This document shows positions 29,915 through 49,184 of a stretch of 64,000 nucleotides of DNA, piece after piece. Both the position numbers and the translations under genes were made by a program. The stretch comes from Halorubrum sp. 48-1-W. GTDB taxonomy: Archaea; Halobacteriota; Halobacteria; Halobacteriales; Haloferacaceae. Under the pieces are notes generated by a model, which saw only the letters and a program-made list of their open reading frames with translations, was not told the DNA's origin and ran no database searches. Within the stretch, counting starts at the first letter, position 1. Each line of letters opens with the position of its first letter. The DNA lies in contig NZ_QMIM01000017.1 in assembly GCF_003287355.1 (NCBI RefSeq), positions 1 to 64,000 on the forward strand, in the 5' to 3' direction.

Positions 29915-29988
29915 GTCCGGGTTAGGGTAGTGGACTATCCTTCAGCCTTGTGGAGGCTGAGACGCGGGTTCGATTCTCGCACCCGGAC
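29915..29988 (+). tRNA. tRNA-His (GUG)
   Basis: A cloverleaf can be drawn by hand. The acceptor pairs G-1:C73 and seven further pairs (tccgggt/acccgga). The anticodon stem is cagcc/ggctg with loop ttgtgga giving anticodon GTG, and the T arm is gcggg-ttcgatt-ctcgc. The extra G at -1 opposite C73 is encoded, as expected for tRNA-His. No CCA is encoded and no intron is seen. Confidence 0.92.
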
Positions 29989-30067
29989 TTTCTGAGGAAC
30001 GTAGTGACGAAGAAAGCCGGACAGCGAGATCGAACCACGCGAGACGAGCGTTAGCGAGTCTCGCAAT

Positions 30068-30091
30068 CGGGGTCGATTCTCGCACCCTGAC
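30068..30091 (+). repeat. Partial copy of the tRNA-His 3' end
   Basis: This 24-base stretch matches the tRNA-His 3' end (29965-29988) at 22 of 24 positions. A duplicated tRNA 3' end beside the gene is the usual trace of integrase-mediated insertion (att site) at tRNA genes. Confidence 0.6.
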
Positions 30092-30140
30092 CTAGGCTTC
30101 TAACGCCCGAATTCGGCACTTTAGCTGAATACAGGCGCTA

Positions 30141-30212
30141 AGCCCCCTCCCTCAAGGAGCACCGCAGTCCGCGCTAGCGGACAAGCGCGCAGTAGGGAGG
30201 GGATACAGCGTC
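30141..30212 (+). mobile_element. Possible TnpB-type end with 9-bp stem
   Basis: Perfect arms cccctccct (30144-30152) and agggagggg (30194-30202) flank a 41-base loop, preceded by gctaag and followed by atacagc. The layout resembles the 3' ends of some haloarchaeal IS1341-type elements. No convincing coding fragment is attached. Confidence 0.4.
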
Positions 30213-30213
30213 C

Positions 30214-30234
30214 CCAGAAATCGAAGATTTCTGG
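30214..30234. repeat. Perfect hairpin, 9-bp stem and 3-base loop
   Basis: The arms ccagaaatc and gatttctgg enclose gaa. It is followed eight bases later by a second hairpin of the same dimensions. Confidence 0.8.
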
Positions 30235-30241
30235 TGTGCGA

Positions 30242-30262
30242 ACGAGACGCGGAGCGTCTCGT
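30242..30262. repeat. Second perfect hairpin, 9-bp stem and 3-base loop
   Basis: The arms acgagacgc and gcgtctcgt enclose gga. Together with the hairpin at 30214 it forms a closely spaced pair in the tRNA-His patch. Confidence 0.8.
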
Positions 30263-30448
30263 CAACGCCGTCATCATCTGGTCGTACACAGTGTGTCGGC
30301 ATGTTCGCCTGCCCACGCAAGCACTTATATTGTCGAACGCCGAATGAGGAATTAAGATGGGCGTTCCGACCTGTCGGCTTCGATTCGCTCGTCGTTCCAT
30401 TCGGAACGACTCGCTCCTTGCGAGGCTGACGGACACGGATAGCGTTCA

Positions 30449-30631
30449 AACGCGACAAGAAGCGTGCGTTCTCCCACGGAATCACCCCGTCGAGAACTAG
30501 GAGTGGGACACTCCGAAGAAACGCCTGTGGAGACTGTACTCCCAGTGGATACATCTGTATCTGTAAAGCGCGTCATGGAAGCAGGAAGCCCCGCCCTCAG
30601 CGAGACCGTCAGGCCGAGCAGGGTGGGGTAG
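30449..30631 (+). pseudogene. C-terminal remnant of a TnpB transposase
   Basis: A frame ending in TAG 30629-30631 reads GVGHSEETPVETVLPVDTSV and then KRVMEAGSPALSE, the recognisable C-terminal tail of one haloarchaeal TnpB group. The RuvC and zinc-ribbon parts are gone. The coding end overlaps a 9-bp stem (ccccgccct, 30589-30597, with agggtgggg) that forms the element's right end, as in intact copies. Confidence 0.65.
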
Positions 30632-30640
30632 TTCACATTC
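30583..30640 (+). mobile_element. Right end of the TnpB remnant
   Basis: The sequence gaagccccgccctcagcgag and its closing arm agggtgggg followed by tagttcac form the hairpin end overlapping the last codons of the tnpB remnant. Confidence 0.6.
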
Positions 30641-30643
30641 GGG

Positions 30644-31060
30644 TCACTCCTCGGCCAGTAGCTTGGAGATCGCGCTAGCCGCGTCCTCAAAGGCGTTGAC
30701 GTCCATGCTATCTGCGGTAAAGAGGACACCTGCATCACCCTGAAGGATTCGGATGACGAACCCGTTTGTGTGAAATCGGACGGTGAATTCATACGGTCCG
30801 ATATCCGGCCCGCCTCCCATGCGGGCGATGGCTGTCCGGATCGGTCGCTCCGCAAACCCGGTGCGTTCGAACTCGACGAGTTGCGACTTGGCCTCTCTAG
30901 CAGTCTCGATCGAATCGTAGAGATCCTGCCGTCTGTAGAGGAGATCAAACGATGACGGGGTGAAATACACCACGGCCCGGAGGGTATCTCCGAGGCTCGT
31001 TCGAGCGGCACTGACGATACCGTCGGCCAGTTCCTCACTGAGATCGGTTTCAAATGTCAT
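30644..31060 (-). CDS. Hypothetical haloarchaeal protein of unknown function
   Basis: A 138-residue soluble protein starting MTFETDLSEELADGIVSAAR. It has an alpha/beta pattern, including VVYFTPSSFDLLYRRQDLYD and YEFTVRFHTNGFVIRILQGD, and ends DAASAISKLLAEE. This resembles a small haloarchaeal family (I recall it as DUF7522, uncertain). It lies in the accessory patch behind tRNA-His, with its stop 12 bases past the TnpB remnant. A start nine bases upstream (MDQMTF) is also possible. Confidence 0.65.
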   Translation of the reverse strand: MTFETDLSEELADGIVSAARTSLGDTLRAVVYFTPSSFDLLYRRQDLYDSIETAREAKSQLVEFERTGFAERPIRTAIARMGGGPDIGPYEFTVRFHTNGFVIRILQGDAGVLFTADSMDVNAFEDAASAISKLLAEE

Positions 31061-31346
31061 TTGATCCACTAATAGAGGGATGCGTGCTATCGTATCAAAC
31101 GTTTCGGCAGAAGCACGCGGGGACCGCAGTGTCTGTCTGGGAACGGGGACAGGTCCATGTGTATTGGAGAATTCCGGTCACATAAGCCGCTACACCCACC
31201 CCGTGTATCGACCGATCGAAGCGGTCATACACAGACTGACTCCCCGTACAAGACTCGCGCTCTCTATTCAGCAGGCCGTTTGTATCAGCCGCTGAAGATT
31301 TCAGCAGAGCCAAAAATCCAATACAGTCGGTTACATCGCAGTCGGT

Positions 31347-32488
31347 ATGCGTCTCTTCGATTTAGCCTCCGATAGGCAGCCACCTGATACGAAAGAGCTG
31401 GAACGCTGCTCAGTCGAAAGCGAGTGGCAACTCGAATCGTGGCTGTTGGCAAATCCTGAGGTGATTCTCGACGAACGGTTGTTGATTTTCGGGCGACAGT
31501 ACAGCCTTGACTCCGGATTTCCCGATTTGCTCGCACTCGACCGGTGGGGGAACGTCGTCGTCATCGAGATCAAGAGGGGGCAAAGCGGGACCGGAAGTGC
31601 CAGCGAGGGAAGCATCCTTTCGCAGCCGCAGGAGTACGCGCAGTCACTCAGCGGGTACGGGTACGACGAGTTGGACGCCGTCTACGACGAGCTGAAGGCG
31701 AAAGTTCGGGACGGTGAGTGGGATCCTGGTGATGCGGAGGTCATCGAGGAGTCGCTGGCGAAAGCCCACAAGACGACGTTCGGGATCGAGGTCGACGAGT
31801 CGGCGTATAATCAACACCAGCGGTTGGTAATCCTCGCGGAGCAGATCACTCGACGAACTGAATCTACGCCCGCTATCTTCTCGAACAGGGACTCAACGTA
31901 CAGTGCGTCTCGGTACAGTGGTTCGCCCCACCAGACGACGATATGAACACAGCCGCCGAGGAGTACGCTGTCCTGGGCTCGTCTACAGTCGTCGACTATC
32001 CGCGTTCGAGGGTTCAGCCCGAGGACGACACCGTCGATTACTCCGACTTGCTTGTTCGTGTCCGGGATCACGCGTATCCGCAGCTCAAAGACGAGCTACG
32101 GTTGGAAGACCGAACTGACATCGCCAGCCAGTCGACGAAGCGGACGATCTTCTTCGGATCGAATCATCCGGACCACCCGAAGCCGCTCAAGTACACGATG
32201 GACCCACAAATCGAGGAAGAGGGGCTCGTCCACTACAAACTCGACCTATGGCAGGCCGAATCCGAGCAAGACACTGTGCTTCGGGAGTTCCTCCGAGACC
32301 AGGCCGAGCAGTTGGACGGGTACTCGTTGACCGAGAACTACGCCAGTGGGATGTCTGTCGTCGAAAGGGAACTGGAAGTTGGTGTCGGCGACGTCGAGAT
32401 CGTTGCGTTGGCGCAGGAGCTGGTCGACCTGGTGACGATCGTCCACTCGGCGGCGGTCGAGGAGTTTCGGGACCACGACGCGTTCTAA
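31347..32488 (+). pseudogene. NucS/DUF91-like PD-(D/E)XK nuclease, frameshifted
   Basis: Two frames join into one protein of about 380 residues. The first has the nuclease core: ESEWQLESWLLANPEVILDE, then DSGFPDLLALDRWGNVVV and IEIKRG, that is Asp followed by ExK of a NucS/DUF91-type site. It breaks near 31865: after ILAEQIT the protein continues in another frame as YARYLLEQGLNVQCVSVQWF and runs to EEFRDHDAF at 32488. One missing base explains both. The catalytic core is upstream of the break, so a shortened active protein cannot be excluded. It may have been a defence or repair nuclease. Confidence 0.75.
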
Positions 32489-32769
32489 GGCTCGGACGGC
32501 GACGACGGCCGACCCGTGAGGGTGAACCGGTCGGGGTGGTGGTTGGGCTGTAGGATGGGTAGAAAGGCACTGGACAGCGTTGCGCCGTCACGGTGCGCTC
32601 CAGGTGGGATCGCGCACGGTCGGGCTGTCCGGCGTGAGGGCAACCGCGTCAGTCGGATCAGAGGCCGTGCGCCGGCCAGCGATTGGCCGTAACCGCCTTT
32701 TCCGATATCGGATGTGTACATCTGTGCGTACACACATGTACGTGCGTTCAGAATCATCGTATCGGCTAT
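32489..32769. other. Intergenic region with a 26-bp imperfect palindrome
   Basis: No gene is supported in this stretch between the broken nuclease gene and the IS end at 32770. It contains the palindrome at 32716-32741. Confidence 0.5.
32716..32741. promoter_or_regulatory. Imperfect 26-bp palindrome
   Basis: The half-sites gtacatctgtg and cacacatgtac match at 10 of 11 positions around a 4-base centre. It could be an old operator or a recombination site; no intact gene follows directly. Confidence 0.4.
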
Positions 32770-38127: not shown

Positions 38128-38261
38128 TCTCTCCACCACGACGTCCTTGACTCTCCACCACGACGTCCCCGGATTTGCCCCGCCGCGACCGCGGGTACTT
38201 TGCCCCCCCAGCGTCGACGCCCGGACGATCAGCACGGAGCCGACCACCGCCGATATCGCGG

Positions 38262-38513
38262 TGGATCGTCTCGGGGATGATCGGCGAGGCCGAACTCGAT
38301 GCGCTCTCGACCGATCCGGAACCGCTCTCGACCGGCCACGACCAGTGGGGATTCGAGCACGTTCTCCTCACGCCGCACGTCTCCGGAGACACCCAAAAGT
38401 ACTGGGAGCGGCGGGCCGACGTCCTCGTCGAGAACGTCGAGCGTGTGGCCGATACGGGCGAGTACGACGACCTCCTGAAGCGGGTCGCCCGAGGCACCGT
38501 CGGGGGCGACTGA
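38262..38513 (+). pseudogene. C-terminal fragment of a D-2-hydroxyacid dehydrogenase
   Basis: About 80 codons read GEAELDALSTDPEPLSTGHD, then FEHVLLTPHVSGDTQKYWER and end TGEYDDLLKRVARGTVGGD. This is the end of the D-isomer-specific 2-hydroxyacid dehydrogenase catalytic domain, including the catalytic His in TPHVSG. The NAD-binding domain and N-terminus are absent, so this is a decay remnant, probably from an earlier gene in this place. Confidence 0.75.
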
Positions 38514-38546: not shown

Positions 38547-39707
38547 TCACTGGTACGCCTGGAGGCCCGTGAGGTCCTCGCCGAGGATGAGCGTGTGGAT
38601 GTCGTGGGTCCCCTCGTAGGTGTAGACGGTCTCCATGTTTGCCATGTGCCGCATCGGGGAGTAGTCGGCCGTGATCCCGTTACCGCCGAGCATCTCGCGG
38701 GCGATCCGCGACTGGTCGCGGGCCATCCGCACGTTGTTCCGCTTGGCCATCGAGACGTGCTGTGGACGCATCTCGCCCGCCTCTTTGAGTTCGGCGAGCC
38801 GGTGGGCGAGCAGTTGAGCGAGCGTGATCTGCGTCGCCATCTCCGCCAGCTTGCGCTGTTGGAGCTGGAAGCCGCCGATGGGCCTCCCGAACTGCTCGCG
38901 GTCGGTGGCGTACTCGCGGGCGGTCTCGAAGCAGTCCTGTGCCGCGCCGACCGCGCCCCACGCGATGCCGTACCGCGCCTGCGTCAGACACGACAGCGGC
39001 CCCTTCATGCCGGAGACGCCCGGCAGGCGGTTCTCCTCGGGGATCCGCGCGTCCTGGAGGCTGATCTCGCCCGTGATCGACGCGCGGAGGCTCATCTTCT
39101 CGTCGATCTTGTTGGTCGTGACGCCGTCCGTATCGGTCTCGACGAGGAACCCGCGGACCGGCGTCCCCTCCTCGCTGTGGTCCTTCGCCCAGACGACCGC
39201 GACGTCCGCGATCGGGGAGTTCGTGATCCACGTCTTCGAGCCGTTGAGGACGAACTCGTCGCCGTCCTTCTCGGCACGGGTCTCCATCGCCGAGGGGTTC
39301 GACCCGTGTTCGGGCTCGGTCAGGCCGAAACAGCCGACCGCCTCGCCCTCGCCGAGAGCGGGGAGCCACTCCTCCTTCTGTTCGTCGCTACCGAACGTGT
39401 AGATCGGGTACATCACGAGCGCGCCCTGGACGCTCGCCATCGACCGGAGTCCCGAGTCGCACGCCTCCAGCTCGCGCATCAGGAGCCCGTAGGAGGTCTC
39501 GCTGACGCCCGGCAGACCGTATCCCTCGAGGTTCGGCGCGTAAAACCCCATCTCGCCCATCTTCGGGATGATCTCCGTCGGGAAGGTGCCCTCGATCCAG
39601 TGTTCGCCCATGTCCTCGACTTCTCCCTCCACGAACGAGCGCGCGGAGTCGACGAGCAGTCGTTCCTCCTGGGTGAGCGACGCCTCCAAATCGAAATAAT
39701 CGATCAT
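38547..39707 (-). CDS. Acyl-CoA dehydrogenase, glutaryl-CoA dehydrogenase type
   Basis: A 386-residue FAD enzyme. Features of glutaryl-CoA dehydrogenases are present: the flavin site CFGLTEPEHGSNPSAMETRA, KTWITNSPIADVAVVWA, the family signature LTQARYGIAWGAVGAA, and the catalytic Glu in VYTYEGTHDIHTLILG. Such enzymes oxidise and decarboxylate glutaryl-CoA to crotonyl-CoA. No other glutaryl-CoA pathway gene is adjacent, and some relatives act on other short acyl-CoAs. The start ATG 39707 is family-like (MIDYFDLEASLTQEER). Confidence 0.9.
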   Translation of the reverse strand: MIDYFDLEASLTQEERLLVDSARSFVEGEVEDMGEHWIEGTFPTEIIPKMGEMGFYAPNLEGYGLPGVSETSYGLLMRELEACDSGLRSMASVQGALVMYPIYTFGSDEQKEEWLPALGEGEAVGCFGLTEPEHGSNPSAMETRAEKDGDEFVLNGSKTWITNSPIADVAVVWAKDHSEEGTPVRGFLVETDTDGVTTNKIDEKMSLRASITGEISLQDARIPEENRLPGVSGMKGPLSCLTQARYGIAWGAVGAAQDCFETAREYATDREQFGRPIGGFQLQQRKLAEMATQITLAQLLAHRLAELKEAGEMRPQHVSMAKRNNVRMARDQSRIAREMLGGNGITADYSPMRHMANMETVYTYEGTHDIHTLILGEDLTGLQAYQ

Positions 39708-39878: not shown

Positions 39879-41096
39879 TCAGAACCCGCTCGTTCCCTCG
39901 AGGAGGTGCTCGTCGACGACGTCCATGTCGAGTTCGATCCCCAGCCCGGGTTCCTCGGGGACCGCGATCCGGCCCTCGTCGATCAGCGGTTCGTCGCGGA
40001 CCAGCAGGTCGTCCCACCAGTCGACCTCGAGCGCGTGGTACTCCAGGAGGTCGAAGTTCGGGGTCGCCGCGCCGAGGTGGACGCAGGCCATCGTTCCCAC
40101 CGGGCTACAGACGTTGTGCGGGGACATCGGCATGTAGTTCTCCTCGGCACGGTCGGCGATCCGCATCGTCTCGTGGAGCCCGCCGACCGTCGTCGGGTCG
40201 GGCGTGACGACGTCGACGCCGTGGTCGTAGATCAGCTCCGAGAGCTCGAACACGCGGAACCGGTTCTCGCCGGTCGCGACCGGCGTCCGCGTCGCCTTCG
40301 TGACCTCCTTCTGTGCGTCCATGTTCTCCGGCGGGACCAGGTCCTCGAGCCACATCAGGTCGAACTCCTCCAGCTCGTAGGCGAGCCGCTTCGCGCTCTC
40401 GACGGAGTAGTCCCAGTGGCAGTCGAACGCGAGGTCGACGTCGTAGCCGATCTCCTCACGCACCGCCTCGACGATCTCGCGTTTCTCGCGGATCGCCGCG
40501 TTCGTCAGCCGCCCGTTGTACGGGTCGTTCTCGTTGTCGGCGGGCAGGTCCAGGTCGAACTTGAGCGCCGGAAAGCCCATGTCGGCCACGCGGGCCGCCT
40601 CGGCGGCGTACGCCTCCGGGGAGTACGCCTCGGCTCCCGCGTAGGCCGTCGCCCCGTCCTCGACGGCGTACGCCTCGCCGGCGTGACAGTCACAGTAGAG
40701 CCGGACCTCGTCGCGGTACTTCGATCCGAGCAGTTGGTACACCGGGAGTCCGAGGACCTTCCCGGCGGCATCCAGAAGCGCCACCTCGATGCCGGAGGCG
40801 GCGGTCACGACCTTGCCGGTAGTGCCGCCGTGGCCGGACATCTCCTGGAAGATATAGCGGACGAGCCGCTCCACGTCGAGCGGGTTCTCGCCGACCAGGA
40901 AGCGGTTCGTGTACTCGACGAGTTCGGGGATCCCGCCGCCGCGGTACGACTCGCCGATGCCGACCACGCCGGCGTCGGTCTCGACTTTGATCAGGTTCCA
41001 CTCGAAGTTGCCCTCGACGACGCAGGCGTCGATGCTCGTGATCTCGACGTCCCGGTCCGGGTCGCGGACGTCGATCCGATCGGAGTAGTCCCTCAT
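39879..41096 (-). CDS. Enolase-superfamily sugar-acid dehydratase-like protein
   Basis: A 405-residue mandelate racemase/muconate lactonizing family member. Visible residues: FPALKFDLDLP (acid/base Lys), DLAFDCHWDY (Mg Asp), LMWLEDLVPPEN (Glu), TPVATGENRF (Glu) and MSPHNVCSPVGTMA with the second His base, a dehydratase pattern as in galactonate, gluconate or rhamnonate dehydratases. The start overlaps the stop of the upstream enolase-superfamily gene by four bases. The substrate is probably a sugar acid; which one is not readable. Confidence 0.87.
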   Translation of the reverse strand: MRDYSDRIDVRDPDRDVEITSIDACVVEGNFEWNLIKVETDAGVVGIGESYRGGGIPELVEYTNRFLVGENPLDVERLVRYIFQEMSGHGGTTGKVVTAASGIEVALLDAAGKVLGLPVYQLLGSKYRDEVRLYCDCHAGEAYAVEDGATAYAGAEAYSPEAYAAEAARVADMGFPALKFDLDLPADNENDPYNGRLTNAAIREKREIVEAVREEIGYDVDLAFDCHWDYSVESAKRLAYELEEFDLMWLEDLVPPENMDAQKEVTKATRTPVATGENRFRVFELSELIYDHGVDVVTPDPTTVGGLHETMRIADRAEENYMPMSPHNVCSPVGTMACVHLGAATPNFDLLEYHALEVDWWDDLLVRDEPLIDEGRIAVPEEPGLGIELDMDVVDEHLLEGTSGF

Positions 41097-42199
41097 GCGC
41101 GGAACTCCTCCAGCGCGTCCGTATCGAGCGTCACGCCGTGGCCCGGCTCGTCGGGCATCGCGATCCGACCGTCGTCGTCGGGCGCGAGCGGCTCCGCGAC
41201 GACGTCGTCGAACGCCTTCACGTCCATGTCGCGGTAGAAGTACTCGATCCAGAGGCCGTTGTCGATCGCCCCGAGCAGCGACGTGTGGATGTTCCAGTTG
41301 TAGTGGGGCGCGATCGGCACGTCGTAGGCAACGGCGTAGTTCGCGATCCGGAGCCACTCCGTGATCCCGCCGCAGACGGTCACGTCCGGCTGGAGGATCG
41401 TCGCCGCGCCCGTGTCGTGAAGTCGCGCGAAGTTGTGGCGGCTCCCCTCGAGTTCGCCGGTGGCGACCGGGTAGTCGATGGCGTCGTTCACCTCCGCCAT
41501 CGTCTCCACGCGGTCGATCATCACCGGCTCCTCGATGAAGTACGGGTCGTACGGCTCGAAGGCCCGACAGGCGCGGACCGCCTCGGTCGTCGACTCCCAG
41601 ACGCCGTTGGCGTCGAGGAGCAACGTCGTCTCCGGACCGACCTCGTCGCGGACGGCTGCGACGCGCTCGACCTCCTCGTCGACCGAGAGACGACCGACCT
41701 TCATCTTCACGACATCGTGGCCCTCGTCGACGTAGCGGCGTACTTCGCTCCGCAGGGCCTCGTGGCCCTTCTCGTCGCGGTAGTATCCCCCGCTGGCGTA
41801 GGAGGGGACCGACTCGCTGTTGCCGCCGAGCAGTTTGTACAGCGGCTGGTCCACAGCCTTCGCCTTCAGGTCCCACAGCGCCATGTCGACGGTGGAGATG
41901 GCGCGCAGGATGATGCCCATCCGCCCGATCTGGACGTTGCCCTCGTACATCTCGCGCCAGAGCCGGGTGGTGTCGCGCGGGTCCTCGCCGGCCACGATAG
42001 GCTCGAGCATCGACTCGACCGCGTCCGCGACGAGGTGGGCTCCCTCGTACCCCAGCGAGTAGCCGACTCCCTCGAGACCGTCGGCGGTTCGAACGTACGT
42101 TATCGCGTGGTCTCGGTAGGTGAGCGTCCGGTTGGAGAAGGAGACGGGTGACTCCAACGGGAGCTCGACCGGGAACGACTCGACCTGTGTGATCTCCAT
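41093..42199 (-). CDS. Enolase-superfamily dehydratase/racemase-like protein
   Basis: A 368-residue mandelate racemase family member starting MEITQVESFPVELPLESPVS. Active-site residues: DVVKMKVGRLS (KxK), TLLLDANGVW (Asp), DPYFIEEPVM (Glu), VATGELEGSRHN (Glu), LQPDVTVCGG (Asp) and APHYNWNIHTS (His). KxK plus His-Asp is the mandelate-racemase pattern, able to act on both faces of a hydroxy acid. It is co-transcribed with the second enolase-superfamily gene and divergent from the LarA-like gene, suggesting linked catabolism. Confidence 0.87.
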   Translation of the reverse strand: MEITQVESFPVELPLESPVSFSNRTLTYRDHAITYVRTADGLEGVGYSLGYEGAHLVADAVESMLEPIVAGEDPRDTTRLWREMYEGNVQIGRMGIILRAISTVDMALWDLKAKAVDQPLYKLLGGNSESVPSYASGGYYRDEKGHEALRSEVRRYVDEGHDVVKMKVGRLSVDEEVERVAAVRDEVGPETTLLLDANGVWESTTEAVRACRAFEPYDPYFIEEPVMIDRVETMAEVNDAIDYPVATGELEGSRHNFARLHDTGAATILQPDVTVCGGITEWLRIANYAVAYDVPIAPHYNWNIHTSLLGAIDNGLWIEYFYRDMDVKAFDDVVAEPLAPDDDGRIAMPDEPGHGVTLDTDALEEFRA

Positions 42200-42306
42200 G
42201 CGTGAGCCGGTAATCCCGCCCGTAAATAGCTCGTTGTATGGGCAAGAAACTTCGTGGCCGAGCCGGCCGAATCGACCGGCTCGCGCCGTGTCGGACGGCC
42301 TCGTCG

Positions 42307-42370
42307 GTCCACGAACACCGTCCGTCCACGAACACCGTCCGTCCACGAACACCGTCCGTCCACGAACACT
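42307..42370 (+). repeat. 17-bp tandem repeat in a divergent promoter region
   Basis: Three perfect copies of gtccacgaacaccgtcc (42307-42357) and a partial fourth lie 30 bases before the LarA-like start and about 110 bases before the enolase-superfamily gene start. There are no spacers, so it is not a CRISPR array. Confidence 0.9.
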
Positions 42371-42399
42371 ATTTGTGTCGTCCCCGCCAGAGCCCACGC

Positions 42400-43716
42400 A
42401 TGGAGTTTCCCGACCGAAGCGACGTCGATCACCTCATCGACGCACAGCCGCTCCCGTCGTTCGCGCACGTCGAGTACGACCCCCCGAGCGAGACCCTCGC
42501 GGACCCCCTCGGCACGGCCCGCACGGAACTCGACCGGCTCGACGGCGACGACCTGGAACCGGGCGATACCGTCGCGATCGGCGTCGGGAGCCGGGGGATC
42601 CACCGGATCGACGAGATCGCCGCTGTGGCGGTCGACTGGGCGGAGACTCGGGGATACGACCCCGTCGTCGTGCCCGCGATGGGGAGCCACGGCGGGGCGA
42701 CCCCGGAGGGACAGCGCGAGGTGCTCTCGGCGCTCGGGATCGACGAGGAGGGCGTGGGAGCCCCCATCGACGCCCGAATGGAGGCGGAGCGGTTGGCGAC
42801 GGTGACCGTCGGCGACACGGACGTGCCGGTGTACTTCTCGACGGCGGCCCTCGAGGCGGACGCGGTCGTCGTGATAAATCGCGTGAAGGCACACACCAAC
42901 TTCAGCGGGCCGATAGAGAGCGGGCTGGCGAAGATGACCGTCGTCGGGCTCGGCAAACAGCGCGGGGCGAAGTCGTTCCACTCGACGGCCATCGCCGAGG
43001 GCTACGTCGAGACGCTGACGGCCGGACTCGACGTCATCGAGGCGGAGGTGTCGCTCCTCGGTGGGCTCGCGTTGGTCGAGAACTTCGAGGAGGAGCTCGG
43101 CCACGTCGAGGCCGTCCCGGCGGGGTCGTTCCTCGACCGGGAGCCCGAGCTACTGGAGCGCGCCTACGAGGAGATGGCGACGCTCCCGGTCGAGGCGGTC
43201 GACCTGCTCGTCGTCGACGAGATCGGCAAGGAGATCTCCGGCGCGGGGATGGACACGAACGTGATCGGCCGCTACCGAGTCCTCAACGCGCCCGACCCGG
43301 AGACGCCCGACATCGACCTCATCTACGTGCGCGGGCTCACCGAGGCGACGAAAGGGAACGGCAACGGGATCGGGCTCGCGGACCTCACCCGCCAGGCGGC
43401 GATCGACCAGCTCGACACGAAGAAGACGTACGCGAACGCGCTCACGAGCGGGTCGCTCGCGAAGTCGAAGCTCCCGGTGGTCGCGCCCGACGACGAGTTC
43501 GCGATCCGGACCGCGCTGGCCGCGCTCGGCGGGTACGACCCCGAGACGGTCCGGATCGTCTGGATCCGGAACACCGAGGACCTCGGCGAGCTCCACGTCT
43601 CCGAGGCGGTCGTCGATGACCTCCCCGAGTCGGCGACGGTACGGGACCACGACGTCGCGGTGACCTTCGAGGACGGGACCGCGCGGATCCGGGACGGAAC
43701 CGCACGGATTCGGTGA
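42400..43716 (+). CDS. LarA-like DUF2088 family protein
   Basis: A 438-residue protein of the lactate-racemase LarA/DUF2088 family. Seen are DTVAIGVGSRGIHRIDEI, VPAMGSHGGATPEGQREVL, INRVKAHTNFSGPIESGLAK and VVGLGKQRGAKSFHS. LarA enzymes racemise or epimerise 2-hydroxy acids with a nickel-pincer cofactor. The cofactor-maturation genes larB, larC and larE are not in the window, and I cannot confirm the pincer Lys. It is divergent from the two enolase-superfamily genes. ATG 42400 is chosen because upstream in-frame sequence lies in the repeat. Confidence 0.8.
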   Translation: MEFPDRSDVDHLIDAQPLPSFAHVEYDPPSETLADPLGTARTELDRLDGDDLEPGDTVAIGVGSRGIHRIDEIAAVAVDWAETRGYDPVVVPAMGSHGGATPEGQREVLSALGIDEEGVGAPIDARMEAERLATVTVGDTDVPVYFSTAALEADAVVVINRVKAHTNFSGPIESGLAKMTVVGLGKQRGAKSFHSTAIAEGYVETLTAGLDVIEAEVSLLGGLALVENFEEELGHVEAVPAGSFLDREPELLERAYEEMATLPVEAVDLLVVDEIGKEISGAGMDTNVIGRYRVLNAPDPETPDIDLIYVRGLTEATKGNGNGIGLADLTRQAAIDQLDTKKTYANALTSGSLAKSKLPVVAPDDEFAIRTALAALGGYDPETVRIVWIRNTEDLGELHVSEAVVDDLPESATVRDHDVAVTFEDGTARIRDGTARIR

Positions 43717-43739
43717 TCGACGTCGACGAAACGGTACCA

Positions 43740-43799
43740 CTCTCCACCGGGACGCTCTCCACCGGGACGCTCTCCACCGGGACGCTCTCCACCGGGACG
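43740..43799 (+). repeat. 15-bp tandem repeat upstream of the cupin gene
   Basis: Four perfect copies of ctctccaccgggacg. They lie between the LarA-like stop and the cupin gene and end just before the TATA-like taaacgttat. Confidence 0.9.
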
Positions 43800-43885
43800 G
43801 TAAACGTTATCAGCCGGGTCGTGTTCGACCCTATCATGGGTCGACAGACGCAAGATACCGCGGACGCACCGACGGAGGAGTCGCG

Positions 43886-44233
43886 ATGAAGCCGGTCGCT
43901 TTCGACGAGGCCGAGACGTACGAGCCCGACGACGGGTGGCGACGGGTCGCGATGGCGGGGAGCGACCAGTTCTCTTTCGAGTGGTTCGAGAAGCCGCCGG
44001 GACACAGCTCGCCGATGCACGACCACGAGAACGAGCAGGTGTGTCTCTGTCTCCAGGGCGAACTCACGGTGGCGACGGAGGACGACTCGGTCACGCTGGC
44101 CCCGAACGACTCGGTACTGCTCGAGTCGAACGAGACCCACCGCGTCGAGAACACGGGCGACGAGCGCGCGGTCGGCCTCGACGTGTTCGCGCCGGGTCGG
44201 TCCTTCGACTTCTGGACGGACCGCGAGGAGTGA
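43886..44233 (+). CDS. Cupin domain protein
   Basis: A 115-residue single-domain cupin. The metal-binding motif 1 reads SPMHDHENEQVCLCLQGEL with two His and Glu, and motif 2 is NETHRVENTGDE. Small cupins bind metal or sugars and often act as isomerases or dioxygenases. The stop is followed after two bases by the FAH-family start, so the two are probably one operon within the sugar-acid locus. Confidence 0.88.
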   Translation: MKPVAFDEAETYEPDDGWRRVAMAGSDQFSFEWFEKPPGHSSPMHDHENEQVCLCLQGELTVATEDDSVTLAPNDSVLLESNETHRVENTGDERAVGLDVFAPGRSFDFWTDREE

Positions 44234-44235
44234 GC

Positions 44236-45057
44236 GTGAAGTACCTCGCACGCACCTCGACGGGGGAGCCGTTGCTCGGCGACGACGACGGCTTCGTGCC
44301 GCTCGGTTCGGTCGAGCCCGACCTCGAACGCGTCCGTCAGGCGCTCCCGCGGGCGGCTGTCGGGACGCTCGGGGACGTCGACGACGCGACCGCCGACCGG
44401 ATCCCGGCGGCGAACCTGACGTTCGCCGCGCCGCTCGAGCGGTTCGGCAAGCTCTGGGGGATCGGCTTGAACTACGAGGAGCACGCCGGCGACCTCGACG
44501 AGGACCGCCCCGAGGAGCCGGCCAGCTTCATGAAGCCCTCGTCGGTCCTCACGGGCCCGGGCGGCCCGATCCGGTTGCCGCCGACCGACCGGAGCGAACG
44601 GGTGACCGCGGAGGCGGAACTCGCCGTCGTGATGGGTCGGACGTGCCGGAACGTCGCGGAGGCCGACGTCGACGACGTCGTCGCCGGCTACCTGCCCGTG
44701 ATCGACATGACCGCCGAGGACGTACTCCAGCGGAACCCGCGCTTTCTCACCCGGGCGAAGAGCTTCGACACGTTCCTCGTCCCCGGTCCCGTCCTCGTCG
44801 TCCCCGAGGAACCCCTCGAGCTGTCGTCGCTGTCCGTACGGACCGAGGTCAACGGCGAGGTCGAGGCCGAAAACGAGATCCGGAACATGCTGTTTCCGCC
44901 CGCCGAGATCGTGTCGTTCCACTCCGGCGTGATGACGCTCGAACCCGGCGACGTGTTCAGCACGGGGACCCCCGGCGCCGCACCCATCGAACCCGGCGAT
45001 CACGTTCGCGCGGTCGTGGAGTCGATCGGGTCGGTCGACGCGCCGGTGACGCGGTAG
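44236..45057 (+). CDS. Fumarylacetoacetate hydrolase family protein
   Basis: A 273-residue FAH-fold enzyme: IGLNYEEHAGDLDE (catalytic His-containing loop), SFMKPSSVLTGPGGPI, AEAELAVVMGRT (metal ligands) and FSTGTPGAAP near the end. Family members hydrolyse or decarboxylate 2-oxo acids and their hydroxy derivatives, including steps at the end of oxidative sugar-acid pathways. The start is GTG 44236, two bases behind the cupin stop. Pairing with two enolase-superfamily genes supports a role in 2-keto-3-deoxy sugar-acid degradation. Confidence 0.9.
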   Translation: MKYLARTSTGEPLLGDDDGFVPLGSVEPDLERVRQALPRAAVGTLGDVDDATADRIPAANLTFAAPLERFGKLWGIGLNYEEHAGDLDEDRPEEPASFMKPSSVLTGPGGPIRLPPTDRSERVTAEAELAVVMGRTCRNVAEADVDDVVAGYLPVIDMTAEDVLQRNPRFLTRAKSFDTFLVPGPVLVVPEEPLELSSLSVRTEVNGEVEAENEIRNMLFPPAEIVSFHSGVMTLEPGDVFSTGTPGAAPIEPGDHVRAVVESIGSVDAPVTR

Positions 45058-45103
45058 CGGTCCGAACGGCCCCCCGGAACCGTCGCTCGAACACGCAGGA
45101 AGC

Positions 45104-45110
45104 TTTATTC
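45104..45110 (+). promoter_or_regulatory. TATA-like box of the UspA gene
   Basis: tttattc lies about 24 bases before ATG 45134, consistent with a leaderless transcript. Confidence 0.5.
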
Positions 45111-45133
45111 GGGAACCCACACCAGTCACGCGT

Positions 45134-45562
45134 ATGTACCGGGTTCTCATCCCCGTCGGCGACGACACGGAACGGTCCATGGCCGCGGCGGACGCCGTGA
45201 GCGACCTCCCGAACGCCGACGAGGCGGTCGAGGCGGTCGTGGTGAACGTCTTCGAGGAGTTCGACGTCACGGGCGAGGGCGGTCAGGTGGACTCCGAGGA
45301 CGTCTGGGACGAGGCGAACTTCCCCGAGAGCGTCCACGCGGTCGTCGAACGCCTCGAATCGGCCGGCGTGACCGCTTCGAAGCGCCGCGAACACGGCGAG
45401 GTGACCGAGGAGATACTCGCCGTCGCCGACGAGATCGACGCCGACGGGATCGTGATGGGCGGACGCAAGCGGAGCCCCACGGGGAAGGCCCTGTTCGGAA
45501 GCACCACCCAGTCGGTGATGCTCTCGGCGGACTGTCCCGTGACGGTCGTGCTCGTCGAGTGA
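45134..45562 (+). CDS. Universal stress protein UspA family
   Basis: A 143-residue single UspA domain: YRVLIPVGDDTERSM at the start and GGRKRSPTGKALFGSTTQSV with the ATP-binding G-2x-G-9x-G(S/T) pattern, then CPVTVVLVE. ATP binding is therefore likely. It stands between the FAH-family gene and the TAXI transporter operon, an arrangement often seen where UspA proteins accompany TRAP transporters. Confidence 0.92.
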   Translation: MYRVLIPVGDDTERSMAAADAVSDLPNADEAVEAVVVNVFEEFDVTGEGGQVDSEDVWDEANFPESVHAVVERLESAGVTASKRREHGEVTEEILAVADEIDADGIVMGGRKRSPTGKALFGSTTQSVMLSADCPVTVVLVE

Positions 45563-45629
45563 CGTCCGCGCCCGCGGGACCGTTATCGCTGTCGAATCGA
45601 TCGAAATGAAATGAAAACCAGAGGAAGTG

Positions 45630-45686
45630 ACTGTTTGTTTAGTTCACTGTGTTATTAATTAACTATTTAATATTGGAACAAACAGT
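45630..45686. promoter_or_regulatory. 10-bp inverted repeat flanking an AT-rich promoter
   Basis: actgtttgtt (45630-45639) and its exact reverse complement aacaaacagt (45677-45686) flank the very AT-rich ttattaattaactatttaat, which holds the likely TATA box of the TAXI transporter operon. This could be a regulator binding site. Confidence 0.5.
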
Positions 45687-45703
45687 TGCATTATTATGTA
45701 TCC

Positions 45704-45718
45704 ACGTGATGATCACGT
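45704..45718. promoter_or_regulatory. Perfect 15-base palindrome before the TAXI operon
   Basis: acgtgatgatcacgt (7-1-7) ends six bases before ATG 45725. The position suits an operator controlling the transporter operon. Confidence 0.5.
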
Positions 45719-45724
45719 TCGAAC

Positions 45725-46876
45725 ATGGCTGACAAAGACGTAAACAGACGCAAGTTCCTGTACGGCACGGCAGCAGTGGGGGTAACCGGACTGGCCGGGT
45801 GTAGCGGCGACGGGGAGACGAACGTGGACGACGACGGCTCCGGCGACGACGGTTCGGGTGACGACGGCTCCGGCGACGATGGCTCCGGTGACGACGGCTC
45901 CGGCGACGACGGCTCCGGTGACGACGGCTCCGGCGACGAGACCCTGGAGCTTCGTGTCGGGACGTCCGCCGGCGGGACCCAGGACGTCGGGTTGGCCGTT
46001 GAGCGGGCGGTCAGTGAGGAGAGCGACACCCTCGAGTACTCGACGATCGAGAGCCCGGGATACATCGGGACCATCTATCGGATGGCCCAGGAGCAGTTCA
46101 ACGCGGGCATCACCGACAACAACTCCCTCAACAAGGCGCTCGACGAGGAGGGACAGTTCGACGAACAGTCGGTGTCGCGGATCCCGTACTACGGCTTCTC
46201 TGCGTTCCCGTACAGCATCTACATCGTCGCGCGTGACGGGACGGACATCGAGACGTTCGACGACCTCGCGGGCGCGAACGTCTACCCCGCCGAGCCGGGG
46301 TACTCGACCCGGGGAACCACCCTCGACGTCTGGTCGCAGGACCCGACCGCCGACGTCTACGAGGAGATGAACATCCAGGACATGGGCGTCGGCGACGCCC
46401 CCGGCGCGATGGAGGAGGGGACGATCGACGCCAGCATCGCCTACGGGACGCCCGGCGTGCGGTACACCGGCTTCGTTCAGGAGATGGCCTCCCGCGTCGA
46501 TCTCCACTACGTCGAGCCGACCGACGCGCTCATCGAGTCCGCGGAGTCCTTCTCGGGCGCCGGGACGACGACGACGAGCTACGACGACTGGCCCATCGTG
46601 GACACGGACATCGGCACCGACGAGGTGTTCACCTGGGACCTGGAGGTGCTCTACACGTTCAACCCGGAGGCCGACGCCGACGCCGTCTACGAGCTGTGCC
46701 GCGTCGTCGACGAGCACAACGACGTCGTGAACGAGGGGGAAGCGCAGTTCAACGACTACGAGTCGACGGCCGACATGCTCGGATACGCTCAAGAGCGGAT
46801 CCCCGTTCACCCCGGCGCGGTCCAGTACTACCAGGACAACGACGCGTGGGACGACAGCCTCGAGGAAGGCGAGTAA
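45725..46876 (+). CDS. TAXI-family TRAP transporter solute-binding protein
   Basis: A 383-residue extracytoplasmic receptor. The N-terminus has a Tat signal with RRKFLYGTAAVGVTG and lipobox LAGC, so it should be a lipoprotein. A (GSGDD)7 linker follows, then the TAXI binding domain (LELRVGTSAGGTQDVGLAVE; YSIYIVARDGTDIETFDDLA; ERIPVHPGAVQYYQDNDAW). TAXI receptors take up organic acids such as glutamate or 2-oxoglutarate; the ligand here is unknown. It is the first gene of the transporter operon. Confidence 0.92.
   Translation: MADKDVNRRKFLYGTAAVGVTGLAGCSGDGETNVDDDGSGDDGSGDDGSGDDGSGDDGSGDDGSGDDGSGDETLELRVGTSAGGTQDVGLAVERAVSEESDTLEYSTIESPGYIGTIYRMAQEQFNAGITDNNSLNKALDEEGQFDEQSVSRIPYYGFSAFPYSIYIVARDGTDIETFDDLAGANVYPAEPGYSTRGTTLDVWSQDPTADVYEEMNIQDMGVGDAPGAMEEGTIDASIAYGTPGVRYTGFVQEMASRVDLHYVEPTDALIESAESFSGAGTTTTSYDDWPIVDTDIGTDEVFTWDLEVLYTFNPEADADAVYELCRVVDEHNDVVNEGEAQFNDYESTADMLGYAQERIPVHPGAVQYYQDNDAWDDSLEEGE
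45836..45940 (+). repeat. 15-bp tandem repeat encoding (GSGDD)7
   Basis: Seven in-frame copies, with only synonymous changes apart from the last codon, encode the flexible acidic linker behind the lipobox of the TAXI receptor. Confidence 0.9.
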
Positions 46877-46950
46877 CGCCTCCCGAGTTGATTGCCCCGC
46901 TTCGATGACGTAGCCGACGAACGACACGACATTTCTATACGATACAACAA

Positions 46951-48942
46951 ATGGATACACAAGCGGAACACACGACCGGACCGACGGGCTGGCTTCGCGG
47001 ACTCGATATCACTGTCACGCTCGCCGCTATCGCCTTTTGGGCGATATCGCTCGGGTGGATGTACACACAGACGTGGTCGACCGTCAGGTACGGCGTGATC
47101 TTCGTCGGCGGTATCATGACGGTGTACGCGCTCAACGAGACGAGGGAATCGCTCGAGGACGGTAGCTGGGTCGACGCCGCGGTGTTACTCCCGTCTGCGG
47201 GCGTGTTGATCACGGCGTCGGCGTACTTCTTCGCCAACTTCGACACCGTCTACCTGCTGCGACAGGGGTTCGCCACGCCACACGAGTACATGCTGGCGCG
47301 ACTCATCATCGTCTCGCTTCTGTACCTCACCTGGCGCGAGTTCGGGAACCTGTTCTTGGGGCTCGTCGTCGGCGTGATGCTGTACGCCATCTTCGGTGAC
47401 GGCGTTCCCGGCGTCCTCGGACACGCGGGGATGACCGAACTGACGCTACTCCAGGCGCTCGTCACCGACCTGTACGGGTTCTACGGGTCGCTCACACAGC
47501 TGACCGCGTCGTGGATCGCGCCGTTCCTCCTGTACGCCGGGCTGTTGTTCGCGTACGGCGCGTTCGATCTGATCCTCCGGCTCGCGATCGTCGCGGCCGG
47601 CCGGATCCGGTCGGGCGTGGCACAGACGGCCGTGCTCTCCTCGGCGGTCATCGGCTCGATCAACGGCTCCTACACGGCCAACGCCGCCATGACCGGCTCG
47701 TTCACCATCCCGACGATGAAGGAGAGCGGGATGGCCGGCCATCGGGCGGCCGGCATCGAGGCGGTCGCCTCGACGGCGGGACAGGTGCTCCCGCCGGTGA
47801 TGGGGGCGTCCGCGTTCGTGATGGCGTCGTACCTCGGCGTGGCGTACCTCGACATCGTGATCGCCGGGATGGTTCCCGCGGCCATCCTGGTCGCGTCCAT
47901 CGCCATCGCGGTCCACTACACCGCGATCAGCGACGCGAGCGACCAGGACATGGAGTTCTCCGAGTTCTTCGACGAGGAGATGACCTCGAGCCAGAAGGTC
48001 GTCGAGGGACTCAGGTTCGGGATCCCGTTCGGCGTCCTGATCTACTACCTCGGCATCGCCCAGTACACGGTGATGACCTCGGCGATGTACACCGTCTTCG
48101 CGATGGTCCTCACCGGCGTCCTGATGCCGCCAGTACAGCGGCTCGTCGACGGCTCGGAGACGTCCGCCGGCGCGGAGTTCGTCGCGCAGGTCAAGAACAC
48201 GATCCACGGGTTCCGCCGCGGGGCCATCATCCTCGCGCCGATCGCGATCATCCTCGTGGTGGTGAGCGGCGTCGTGAACCTCTTCTCGACGACCGGCGTC
48301 CCCGCGAAGATCGCGCTCCTGATGATCAACCTCTCGGGCGGCGTCCTGCTCTTCGCCGTCCTGCTCGGGATGGCGGTCGCCATCGTAATGGGCGTCGGCA
48401 TGCCGACGGTCGCCGCGTACGTCATCGTGGCCATCCTCATCGTTCCGACGTTCGTCGCCGACTTCGGGATCGCCCGCGAGACGGCACACTACACGATGTT
48501 CTACGCGGCGATCCTCGCCGGGATCACGCCACCGGTCGCGACCGCGGCGGTGGTCGCGGCCGGGATAGCGGAGGCGAACTTCTGGCGGACCTGCGGGGCT
48601 GCCCTGAAGATCGCCGCGCCGCTCTTCGTGTTACCCGTCGCGTTCGTCTACAACCCGGGGCTGATCTCGATGTCGCCGGACGGGAACACGCTGTTCCTCG
48701 GCGCGCTGGTGATGCTGGGCGCGATCGCGATCATCTACGGGTTGAACTACCCGTTCGAGCTGTCCATCGGCCGGATCACGCTCGTTCGCGTCGGACTGAC
48801 GGTGCTCGGCGTCCTGATCATGACGTTCCCGATGCTCGCGGTGAAGCTCGGCGGGATCGCCGTCTTCGTCGCCGTCTTCGTCGGCGAGAAGGTGATGGTG
48901 CGCGGAATGGACCTGCCGTTCGGATCGGGGGTGAACCAATGA
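46951..48942 (+). CDS. TAXI-type TRAP transporter fused permease
   Basis: A 663-residue membrane protein joining the small (DctQ-like) and large (DctM-like) TRAP subunits, as usual for TAXI systems. About sixteen hydrophobic helices are visible. TRAP-M hallmarks include SSAVIGSINGSYTANAAMTG and GVGMPTVAAYVIVAILIVP, and MFYAAILAGITPPVATAAVV. It works with the receptor 74 bases upstream as a Na+- or H+-driven importer. Its stop overlaps the start of an 81-residue membrane gene (ATGA). Confidence 0.93.
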   Translation: MDTQAEHTTGPTGWLRGLDITVTLAAIAFWAISLGWMYTQTWSTVRYGVIFVGGIMTVYALNETRESLEDGSWVDAAVLLPSAGVLITASAYFFANFDTVYLLRQGFATPHEYMLARLIIVSLLYLTWREFGNLFLGLVVGVMLYAIFGDGVPGVLGHAGMTELTLLQALVTDLYGFYGSLTQLTASWIAPFLLYAGLLFAYGAFDLILRLAIVAAGRIRSGVAQTAVLSSAVIGSINGSYTANAAMTGSFTIPTMKESGMAGHRAAGIEAVASTAGQVLPPVMGASAFVMASYLGVAYLDIVIAGMVPAAILVASIAIAVHYTAISDASDQDMEFSEFFDEEMTSSQKVVEGLRFGIPFGVLIYYLGIAQYTVMTSAMYTVFAMVLTGVLMPPVQRLVDGSETSAGAEFVAQVKNTIHGFRRGAIILAPIAIILVVVSGVVNLFSTTGVPAKIALLMINLSGGVLLFAVLLGMAVAIVMGVGMPTVAAYVIVAILIVPTFVADFGIARETAHYTMFYAAILAGITPPVATAAVVAAGIAEANFWRTCGAALKIAAPLFVLPVAFVYNPGLISMSPDGNTLFLGALVMLGAIAIIYGLNYPFELSIGRITLVRVGLTVLGVLIMTFPMLAVKLGGIAVFVAVFVGEKVMVRGMDLPFGSGVNQ

Positions 48943-49184
48943 GCTCGACGAAGGACTCCACCGAGGACCAGATCGACACCTCGGAGGTCGGCGGCCTCGA
49001 AGAGATCGTTCCGGAACCGCTCATGCCCGTCTGGAAGCGGATCGAGTTGATCCAGCAGTTCCGTGAGACGCACGGCGACACCTACGTGACGGTCTTCGAG
49101 GTGCTCACGGCCATCGTTCTCGCCCTCGGCTACCTCTGGTGGGCGTACATCTACTTCATCGGCGACAACGTCGTGACGATCTGA
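48939..49184 (+). CDS. Small membrane protein of the TAXI transporter operon
   Basis: An 81-residue protein starting MSSTKDSTEDQIDTSEVGGL. After an acidic N-terminus and an amphipathic part (VWKRIELIQQFRETHGDTYV), one membrane helix follows (VFEVLTAIVLALGYLWWAYI). The four-base overlap with the permease stop argues for translational coupling and joint function. It could be an extra subunit or a stabilising protein; I do not recognise a named family. Confidence 0.75.
   Translation: MSSTKDSTEDQIDTSEVGGLEEIVPEPLMPVWKRIELIQQFRETHGDTYVTVFEVLTAIVLALGYLWWAYIYFIGDNVVTI

Follow-up and report, generated by a model that had tools for sequence, protein, structure and literature searches.

A haloarchaeal gene cluster with a group-22 nickel-pincer isomerase as a candidate unit for sugar-acid breakdown

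What is taken up and broken down by a haloarchaeal gene cluster in which a LarA-like protein, two enolase-superfamily proteins, an FAH-family hydrolase and a TAXI-type transporter are encoded side by side? The question is raised by positions 39879-49184 of a 64,000-nucleotide stretch of Halorubrum sp. 48-1-W (C2:1-64000, called here the window), which belongs to a genome of 3.58 Mb in 69 contigs that is placed in Halorubrum by its named relatives. A first-pass annotation had proposed an uptake and degradation locus here; every gene it named is an intact open frame, and profile searches confirmed the families given. The answer which we hold at slightly better than an even chance is that the genes together serve to catabolise a sugar acid (aldonate) from outside the cell, through import, C2 inversion, dehydration, C4 oxidation and cleavage of a diketo acid. 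The genes concerned are the following.

39879..41096, minus strand: EnoA, 405 aa, enolase superfamily (mandelate racemase, MR, subgroup), candidate acid-sugar dehydratase of the GalD/GlcD type (MR_MLE_C, 214 bits)
41093..42199, minus strand: EnoB, 368 aa, enolase superfamily (MR subgroup) with KxK motif, candidate acid-sugar dehydratase (MR_MLE_C, 213 bits)
42400..43716, plus strand: LarA-like protein of 438 aa, nickel-pincer isomerase of group 22, candidate for a C2 epimerase or a racemase (NF052515, 484.3 bits)
43886..44233, plus strand: small cupin, 115 aa, with a metal-type HxH motif (Cupin_2, 62 bits)
44236..45057, plus strand: hydrolase of the FAH family, 273 aa, starting with GTG, candidate for the cleavage of 2,4-diketo acids (FAA_hydrolase, 178 bits)
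45134..45562, plus strand: universal stress protein (Usp), 142 aa (Usp, 73 bits)
45725..46876, plus strand: TAXI solute-binding lipoprotein, 383 aa (NMT1_3; TRAP_TAXI, 82.6 bits)
46951..48942, plus strand: fused TRAP permease (DctM/TRAP_fused), 663 aa (TRAP_fused, 369 bits)
48939..49184, plus strand: small membrane protein, 81 aa, accompanying the permease in relatives (from the sequence and the relatives' clusters)

The EnoA and EnoB genes overlap by 4 bp and diverge from the LarA-like gene, which is followed on the plus strand by the cupin, FAH, Usp, TAXI, TRAP and 81-aa membrane protein genes, the last two again with a 4-bp overlap. Three genes had been overlooked in the first-pass annotation, namely the 81-aa membrane gene, a remnant of a D-2-hydroxyacid dehydrogenase next to the locus, and a short-chain dehydrogenase/reductase (SDR) gene which relatives carry between LarA and the cupin. 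The closest named copy is that of H. aquaticum (LarA-like protein 91% identical), and in comparison with it the locus genes are under purifying selection, with a ratio of nonsynonymous to synonymous substitution rates (dN/dS) of 0.07-0.39.

That the genes form a single unit of catabolism, equipped with a TAXI-TRAP importer of its own, is supported by their linkage in several genera of three families. The order EnoA-EnoB, then divergently LarA-SDR-cupin-FAH-(Usp)-TAXI-TRAP-small membrane gene, is found in many Halorubrum and other genera and also on a plasmid of Haloarcula litorea, the Usp gene being absent from some of the relatives' clusters. In Natrialbaceae (Natribaculum, Halobiforma, Natronococcus) an IclR gene stands between LarA and SDR and the TAXI/TRAP genes lie on the opposite side. 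Linkage in related genomes had been set beforehand as a check on the whole idea; it was found conserved across Haloferacaceae, Haloarcula and Natrialbaceae and survives the rearranged order, so that the core of the first-pass annotation is now better founded, and its interpretation as a whole is partly supported. Counted over 148 genomes of the family, the association greatly exceeds what chance would give. A LarA ortholog (at least 54% identity) is present in 44 of them. EnoB is present in 32 of these 44 and in 7 of the 104 others (Fisher p 5e-16, uncorrected for shared ancestry), and no more than 8 kb separate the two genes in 25 of the 32. Of the same 44 genomes, 40 have FAH, which in 35 is at most 8 kb from LarA; EnoB and FAH are likewise at most 8 kb apart in 30 of 35 genomes, and the cluster copies of EnoB form one clade (24 rows) with a value of 100 in the Shimodaira-Hasegawa-like approximate likelihood ratio test (SH-aLRT).

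The LarA-like protein exceeds the cut-off of 400 bits of NCBIfam NF052515 ('nickel pincer cofactor-dependent isomerase, group 22') with 484.3 bits; with Pfam Lar_N it stays below the cut-off (18.3 vs 23.3 bits), and PDB sequence searches with the single sequence and with a profile gave no match. When its AlphaFold2 model (predicted local distance difference test, pLDDT, 86.8) was searched with Foldseek, the top 18 matches all belonged to the LarA family (E 6e-11 to 4e-7), the following match being at 4e-3; the template modelling (TM) score to LarA structures is about 0.5 with a large root-mean-square deviation, perhaps due to domain movement, and identity to solved LarA proteins is about 11-15%. 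R65, H97, H165, K178 and H194, which would make up the expected set of two catalytic His, a Ni-binding His, the NPN-linking Lys and an Arg, are invariant across 19 homologs (identity down to 38%) and were equated, by motif and spacing and not by residue superposition, with R75, H108, H174, K184 and H200 of LarA, which are listed in PMC7583248; the K-to-H spacing of 16 matches that of K184/H200. Biosynthesis genes for the nickel-pincer nucleotide (NPN) cofactor are present in the host genome, with scores above the cut-offs for LarB (227 vs 175 bits), LarC1 (185.5 vs 90) and LarE (294.5 vs 150), although larC is near universal in the host family (137 of 148 genomes) and its presence alone gives little information. 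The annotated LarA-like isomerase thus stands as an NPN-type protein with catalytic-type residues and cofactor genes; that it acts first is a guess, as it may act on the FAH product, and with a sugar acid as substrate the 'racemisation' ascribed to it is better called C2 epimerisation.

Group-22 isomerases are widespread (more than 580 matched stretches at least, in archaea, Poribacteria, Planctomycetes, bacilli and others). In several bacterial loci their genes adjoin those of TRAP DctM, PdxA and an SBD_N/NBD_C sugar-acid kinase, a setting which suggests four-carbon acid sugars and would fit an acid-sugar epimerase. In Poribacteria (L098-L111) their neighbours are a TIM-barrel gene and one for a UbiA prenyltransferase, and because of this context group 22 is probably not uniform in function and may include enzymes for other substrates. 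In the literature searched, outside which most subscription papers lie, no substrate is assigned to group 22.

Both enolases have the domains MR_MLE_N and MR_MLE_C, and their three metal-binding acids and acid/base residues are complete and of dehydratase type. K179, D225-x-H227, E251, E277, D300, H327 and E352 of EnoA (pattern K-x-D, D-x-H, E, E, D, H, E) and K165-x-K167, D196, E223/E224, E249, D272, H299 and E319 of EnoB are each invariant in 11 homologs and were aligned with solved relatives. We take the EnoA pattern to be that of galactonate/gluconate-type dehydratases and the EnoB pattern to be that of the fuconate/talarate type, two types which would accept different configurations at C2. 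Among NCBIfam models EnoA matches those of galactonate/gluconate dehydratases and EnoB those of arabinonate and talarate/galactarate dehydratases, all below cut-off, the best scores being 196 of 311 bits for EnoA (galactonate) and 243 of 650 bits for EnoB (arabinonate). The best PDB match of EnoB, 3,6-anhydro-L-galactonate cycloisomerase, was not adopted as its function, since talarate/galactarate dehydratase scores nearly equally and no agar genes were seen.

The FAH-family protein scores far above the FAA_hydrolase cut-off (178 vs 23.9 bits) and is 36-38% identical to rhcF of Haloarcula pelagica. The cupin is conserved at 75-96% identity across 12 homologs and has only weak PDB relatives; a role as KdgF, a uronate-linearising cupin, was considered from its C-terminal motif and dropped, KdgF not being among its 33 PDB matches. 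For the importer, the fused permease exceeds the TRAP_fused cut-off (369 vs 321 bits), while the TAXI protein is just under that of TRAP_TAXI (82.6 vs 84.35) and above that of Pfam NMT1_3.

An enolase followed directly by FAH, as the first-pass annotation had it, is chemically incomplete. The relatives supply an SDR, encoded between LarA and the cupin, and this gene is missing from the window, from H. aquaticum and from the closest relatives. Among 39 genomes searched, a free SDR of the C2:97153 type (89-100% identity) was found in the clade of the window, namely in the host (G000) and in G136, G057, G142 and G151; the three of these which were inspected (G000, G136, G057) all lack the operon SDR, and most relatives with the operon SDR show no second one. 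By descent the free SDR belongs with those of a different SDR-cupin-FAH module. These findings would fit a replacement of the operon SDR in trans, probably by the copy at G000:C2:97153. That the loss of the operon SDR marks a dead pathway is spoken against by the dN/dS values and by this free copy. The SDR family (e.g. L036:10477-11265) is highly conserved and tied to FAH genes despite having Ser and Arg at two catalytic positions.

Hints to the substrate come from units without LarA, since EnoB-FAH-SDR sets also exist separately. In five haloarchaeal genera (L167-L171, at G018:C8, G042:C7, G044:C8, G027:C1 and G060:C35) such a set, its core enzymes 60-75% identical to those of the cluster, is accompanied by genes for a nucleoside hydrolase, a sugar-dehydrogenase-like protein and a lactonase-like protein of the metallo-beta-lactamase (MBL) fold, and in most of them by energy-coupling factor (ECF) transporter genes and an IclR regulator. 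These loci are candidates for an oxidative breakdown of ribose or nucleosides, which would run from ribose over ribonolactone, ribonate, a 2-keto-3-deoxy acid and a diketo acid to pyruvate and glycolate, and on this account a pentonate would be likely at the LarA cluster. D-ribonate and D-arabinonate are C2 epimers and yield the same 2-keto-3-deoxy acid. Against the pentonate hint, a glycerate 2-kinase (DUF4147) gene 7 kb downstream of the Haloarcula litorea cluster would fit a hexonate; both carbon numbers are allowed, and the hints point to a pentonate or a hexonate. Another sugar-acid unit is seen at L178, L182 and L183, where genes for a sugar ABC transporter and an aspartate-dehydrogenase-like protein accompany EnoB and EnoA homologs (58-62%).

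In the proposed pathway the TAXI/fused-TRAP system would import the aldonate and the group-22 enzyme would invert C2, making either C2 epimer usable. EnoA and/or EnoB would convert the aldonate to a 2-keto-3-deoxy acid, the SDR (from the operon in relatives, here in trans and probably from the paralog at G000:C2:97153) would oxidise C4, and FAH would cleave the resulting 2,4-diketo acid; besides pyruvate this would yield a short hydroxy acid, namely glycolate if the substrate is a pentonate and glycerate if it is a hexonate. The order of reactions, the C4 oxidation, the class of the substrate and its import, and the service of all the genes to a single substrate are what we infer. The more specific form, in which the NPN enzyme epimerises the imported aldonate (e.g. 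D-arabinonate to D-ribonate) ahead of the dehydratase, with a new type of SDR without Tyr/Lys and an FAH giving pyruvate plus glycolate or glycerate, is put forward tentatively and well short of an even chance.

Several observations weigh against this pathway. The equivalog cut-offs for named dehydratases (galactonate, gluconate, arabinonate, rhamnonate, talarate, mannonate) are not reached by EnoA or EnoB, and FAH is under every NCBIfam equivalog cut-off. The TAXI protein matches solved TAXI proteins only remotely and weakly, so that the imported substrate is a guess. In all 50 SDR homologs the catalytic Tyr and Lys of classical SDRs are replaced by Ser and Arg, which makes C4 oxidation the weakest step and one that is not assured. 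The host lacks the operon SDR and its D-2-hydroxyacid dehydrogenase is truncated, and the route of this strain may therefore be partial. An epimerase next to two dehydratases, each of which may take one C2 epimer, looks redundant. Finally, 12 genomes have the LarA ortholog without EnoB and 7 have EnoB without the LarA ortholog.

The alternative nearest to the proposed pathway is that the LarA-like enzyme acts last and racemises the glycerate or lactate released by FAH for a stereospecific kinase or dehydrogenase. An intact D-2-hydroxyacid dehydrogenase at the relatives' clusters would suit it, as would the glycerate 2-kinase near the Haloarcula litorea cluster, a DUF4147 gene adjoining a LarA paralog in Haloarcula marismortui, and the known LarA homologs that racemise glycerate and lactate (PMC11770544). 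We nevertheless consider it unlikely, because the EnoB-FAH-SDR units without LarA need no racemase for their product, LarA-EnoB pairs lie within 8 kb in 25 genomes, and the bacterial group-22 genes stand beside the acid-sugar kinase and PdxA, that is, beside upstream steps. The genes may also be chance neighbours with three separate substrates, a hydroxy acid for importer and LarA, a second one for EnoA/EnoB and yet another for SDR-cupin-FAH. The parts are indeed met separately, as SDR-cupin-FAH alone, as EnoB-EnoA with the sugar ABC transporter and aspartate-dehydrogenase-like gene, as TAXI-TRAP-EnoB-EnoA without LarA or FAH, and as LarA in the 12 genomes without EnoB; their repeated reassembly in three families, with the order rearranged and the linkage kept, renders this improbable.

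A shade less probable again is the known diketo-hydrolase route, in which L-rhamnonate or L-fuconate would be broken down to pyruvate and lactate. FAH is related to 2,4-diketo-3-deoxy-L-rhamnonate hydrolases (123 bits with NF053535, a match to PDB 8gsr, 38% to rhcF), but the NF053535 cut-off is 500, and neither EnoA nor EnoB reaches the cut-off of the L-rhamnonate dehydratase model. The dehydratase of the rhcF locus is UxuA-like and not an enolase, and its SDR is 29% identical with a normal motif YAAAK, whereas the cluster SDR is without Tyr-x3-Lys. Aromatic-acid degradation, with FAH as an HpaG/HpcE-like isomerase or decarboxylase, would explain why HpaG is among the best NCBIfam and PDB matches of FAH; with 149 bits against a cut-off of 276, and with no aromatic ring-cleavage genes recognised in the LarA-holding clusters, we give it hardly any weight.

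Sugar-acid catabolism through the group-22 enzyme, as proposed here, can be compared with several described systems. The D-gluconate 2-epimerases GntE1/GntE2 (PMC7583248, PMC11770544) are likewise of the LarA superfamily, with NPN-type catalytic residues and aldonate C2 epimerisation in a sugar-acid setting; the present protein falls in the separate group 22, in a setting with two enolases, SDR and FAH. The L-rhamnose/L-fucose diketo-hydrolase pathway (L-KDF dehydrogenase, PMC11199699) shares dehydratase, SDR and FAH steps leading to pyruvate and a hydroxy acid, and rhcF is annotated in haloarchaea; in contrast to that pathway in Haloarcula pelagica, the cluster has an enolase dehydratase, an SDR without YxxxK and, in addition, the NPN isomerase and TAXI-TRAP. 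Four-carbon acid-sugar operons of bacilli and other bacteria (PdxA-type dehydrogenase with SBD_N/NBD_C kinase) share the group-22 isomerase beside TRAP and acid-sugar genes and differ in their phosphorylating chemistry and in having no enolase or FAH, whereas the EnoB-FAH-SDR-IclR modules of L167-L171 share homologous core enzymes and have no LarA, TAXI-TRAP or cupin. The novelty that had been suggested for the pathway is accordingly narrower: nickel epimerases that feed a sugar-acid route and FAH diketo-hydrolase routes are already known in kind, and what would be new is the role of the group-22 enzyme and this combination of genes, neither the cluster nor that role being described in the literature searched.

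The divergent promoter between EnoB and LarA, and a second repeat upstream of the cupin, contain the following elements.

42223..42229, minus strand: TATA-like box (CTATTTA) of the EnoB-EnoA transcript, 24 nt 5' of the start codon, position kept in relatives
42240..42245, strand not assigned: GGCAA-type element, in a similar place in most relatives' divergent promoters as judged by eye
42307..42369, plus strand: four tandem copies of GTCCACGAACAC, repeating every 17 bp and flanked by the two divergent TATA boxes
42370..42375, plus strand: TATA-like box (TATTTG) of the LarA transcript, 25-30 nt 5' of the ATG
43740..43799, plus strand: four tandem 15-bp copies of CTCTCCACCGGGACG, upstream of the cupin, where relatives hold the SDR gene

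With TATA-like boxes about 24-30 nt upstream, both divergent starts would resemble those of leaderless haloarchaeal transcripts, and the EnoB-EnoA transcript is probably leaderless; at the LarA-side position several relatives have TTTTGTA or ATTTGT. The GGCAA-type element is a possible regulator site. The repeats, gene overlaps and divergence of the repeat-containing promoter noted in the first pass are real, and the promoter repeats are strain-specific. The 17-bp array of GTCCACGAACAC occurs once in the host genome by a genome search. In H. aquaticum a single full copy is found together with a degenerate one, and the other relatives have none; a conserved operator was rejected because most relatives are without copies, and the array looks like a recent local amplification.

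Two further features adjoin the locus on the EnoA side.

38247..38489, plus strand: C-terminal remnant of the D-2-hydroxyacid dehydrogenase, with 81 of 323 residues left; H. aquaticum and other relatives have the intact gene
38547..39707, minus strand: acyl-CoA dehydrogenase adjoining EnoA, linked in Halorubrum and Haloarcula litorea, only tentatively connected with the pathway

Elsewhere in the window, the 3' part of tRNA-His recurs as an incomplete copy (30047-30091, 73% over 45 nt, within 29915-30091), which lies beside a low-GC stretch (30000-32500) and is possibly the remnant of an integration site. Near the cluster in other genomes, CoA-transferase genes were seen at L161, L164 and L043 (succinyl-CoA:acetate-type at L164, similar in the others) and a family III CoA-transferase at L082/L084. 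The host genome has a second, parallel cluster (L032, G000:C8:42000-61500) with an HpcH-type aldolase, TAXI, TRAP, an SDR with normal YxxxK and a D-2-hydroxyacid dehydrogenase. It also holds a LarA paralog (44%), likewise of group 22, along with three enolases and UxuA-like, acyl-CoA dehydrogenase and enoyl-CoA-hydratase-like genes.

The conserved cluster gives the group-22 enzyme a probable class of substrate, an importer and downstream enzymes, and thereby a short list of assays. If the proposed pathway is true, haloarchaeal carbon metabolism would gain a sugar-acid route with a nickel-dependent step of stereo-inversion.

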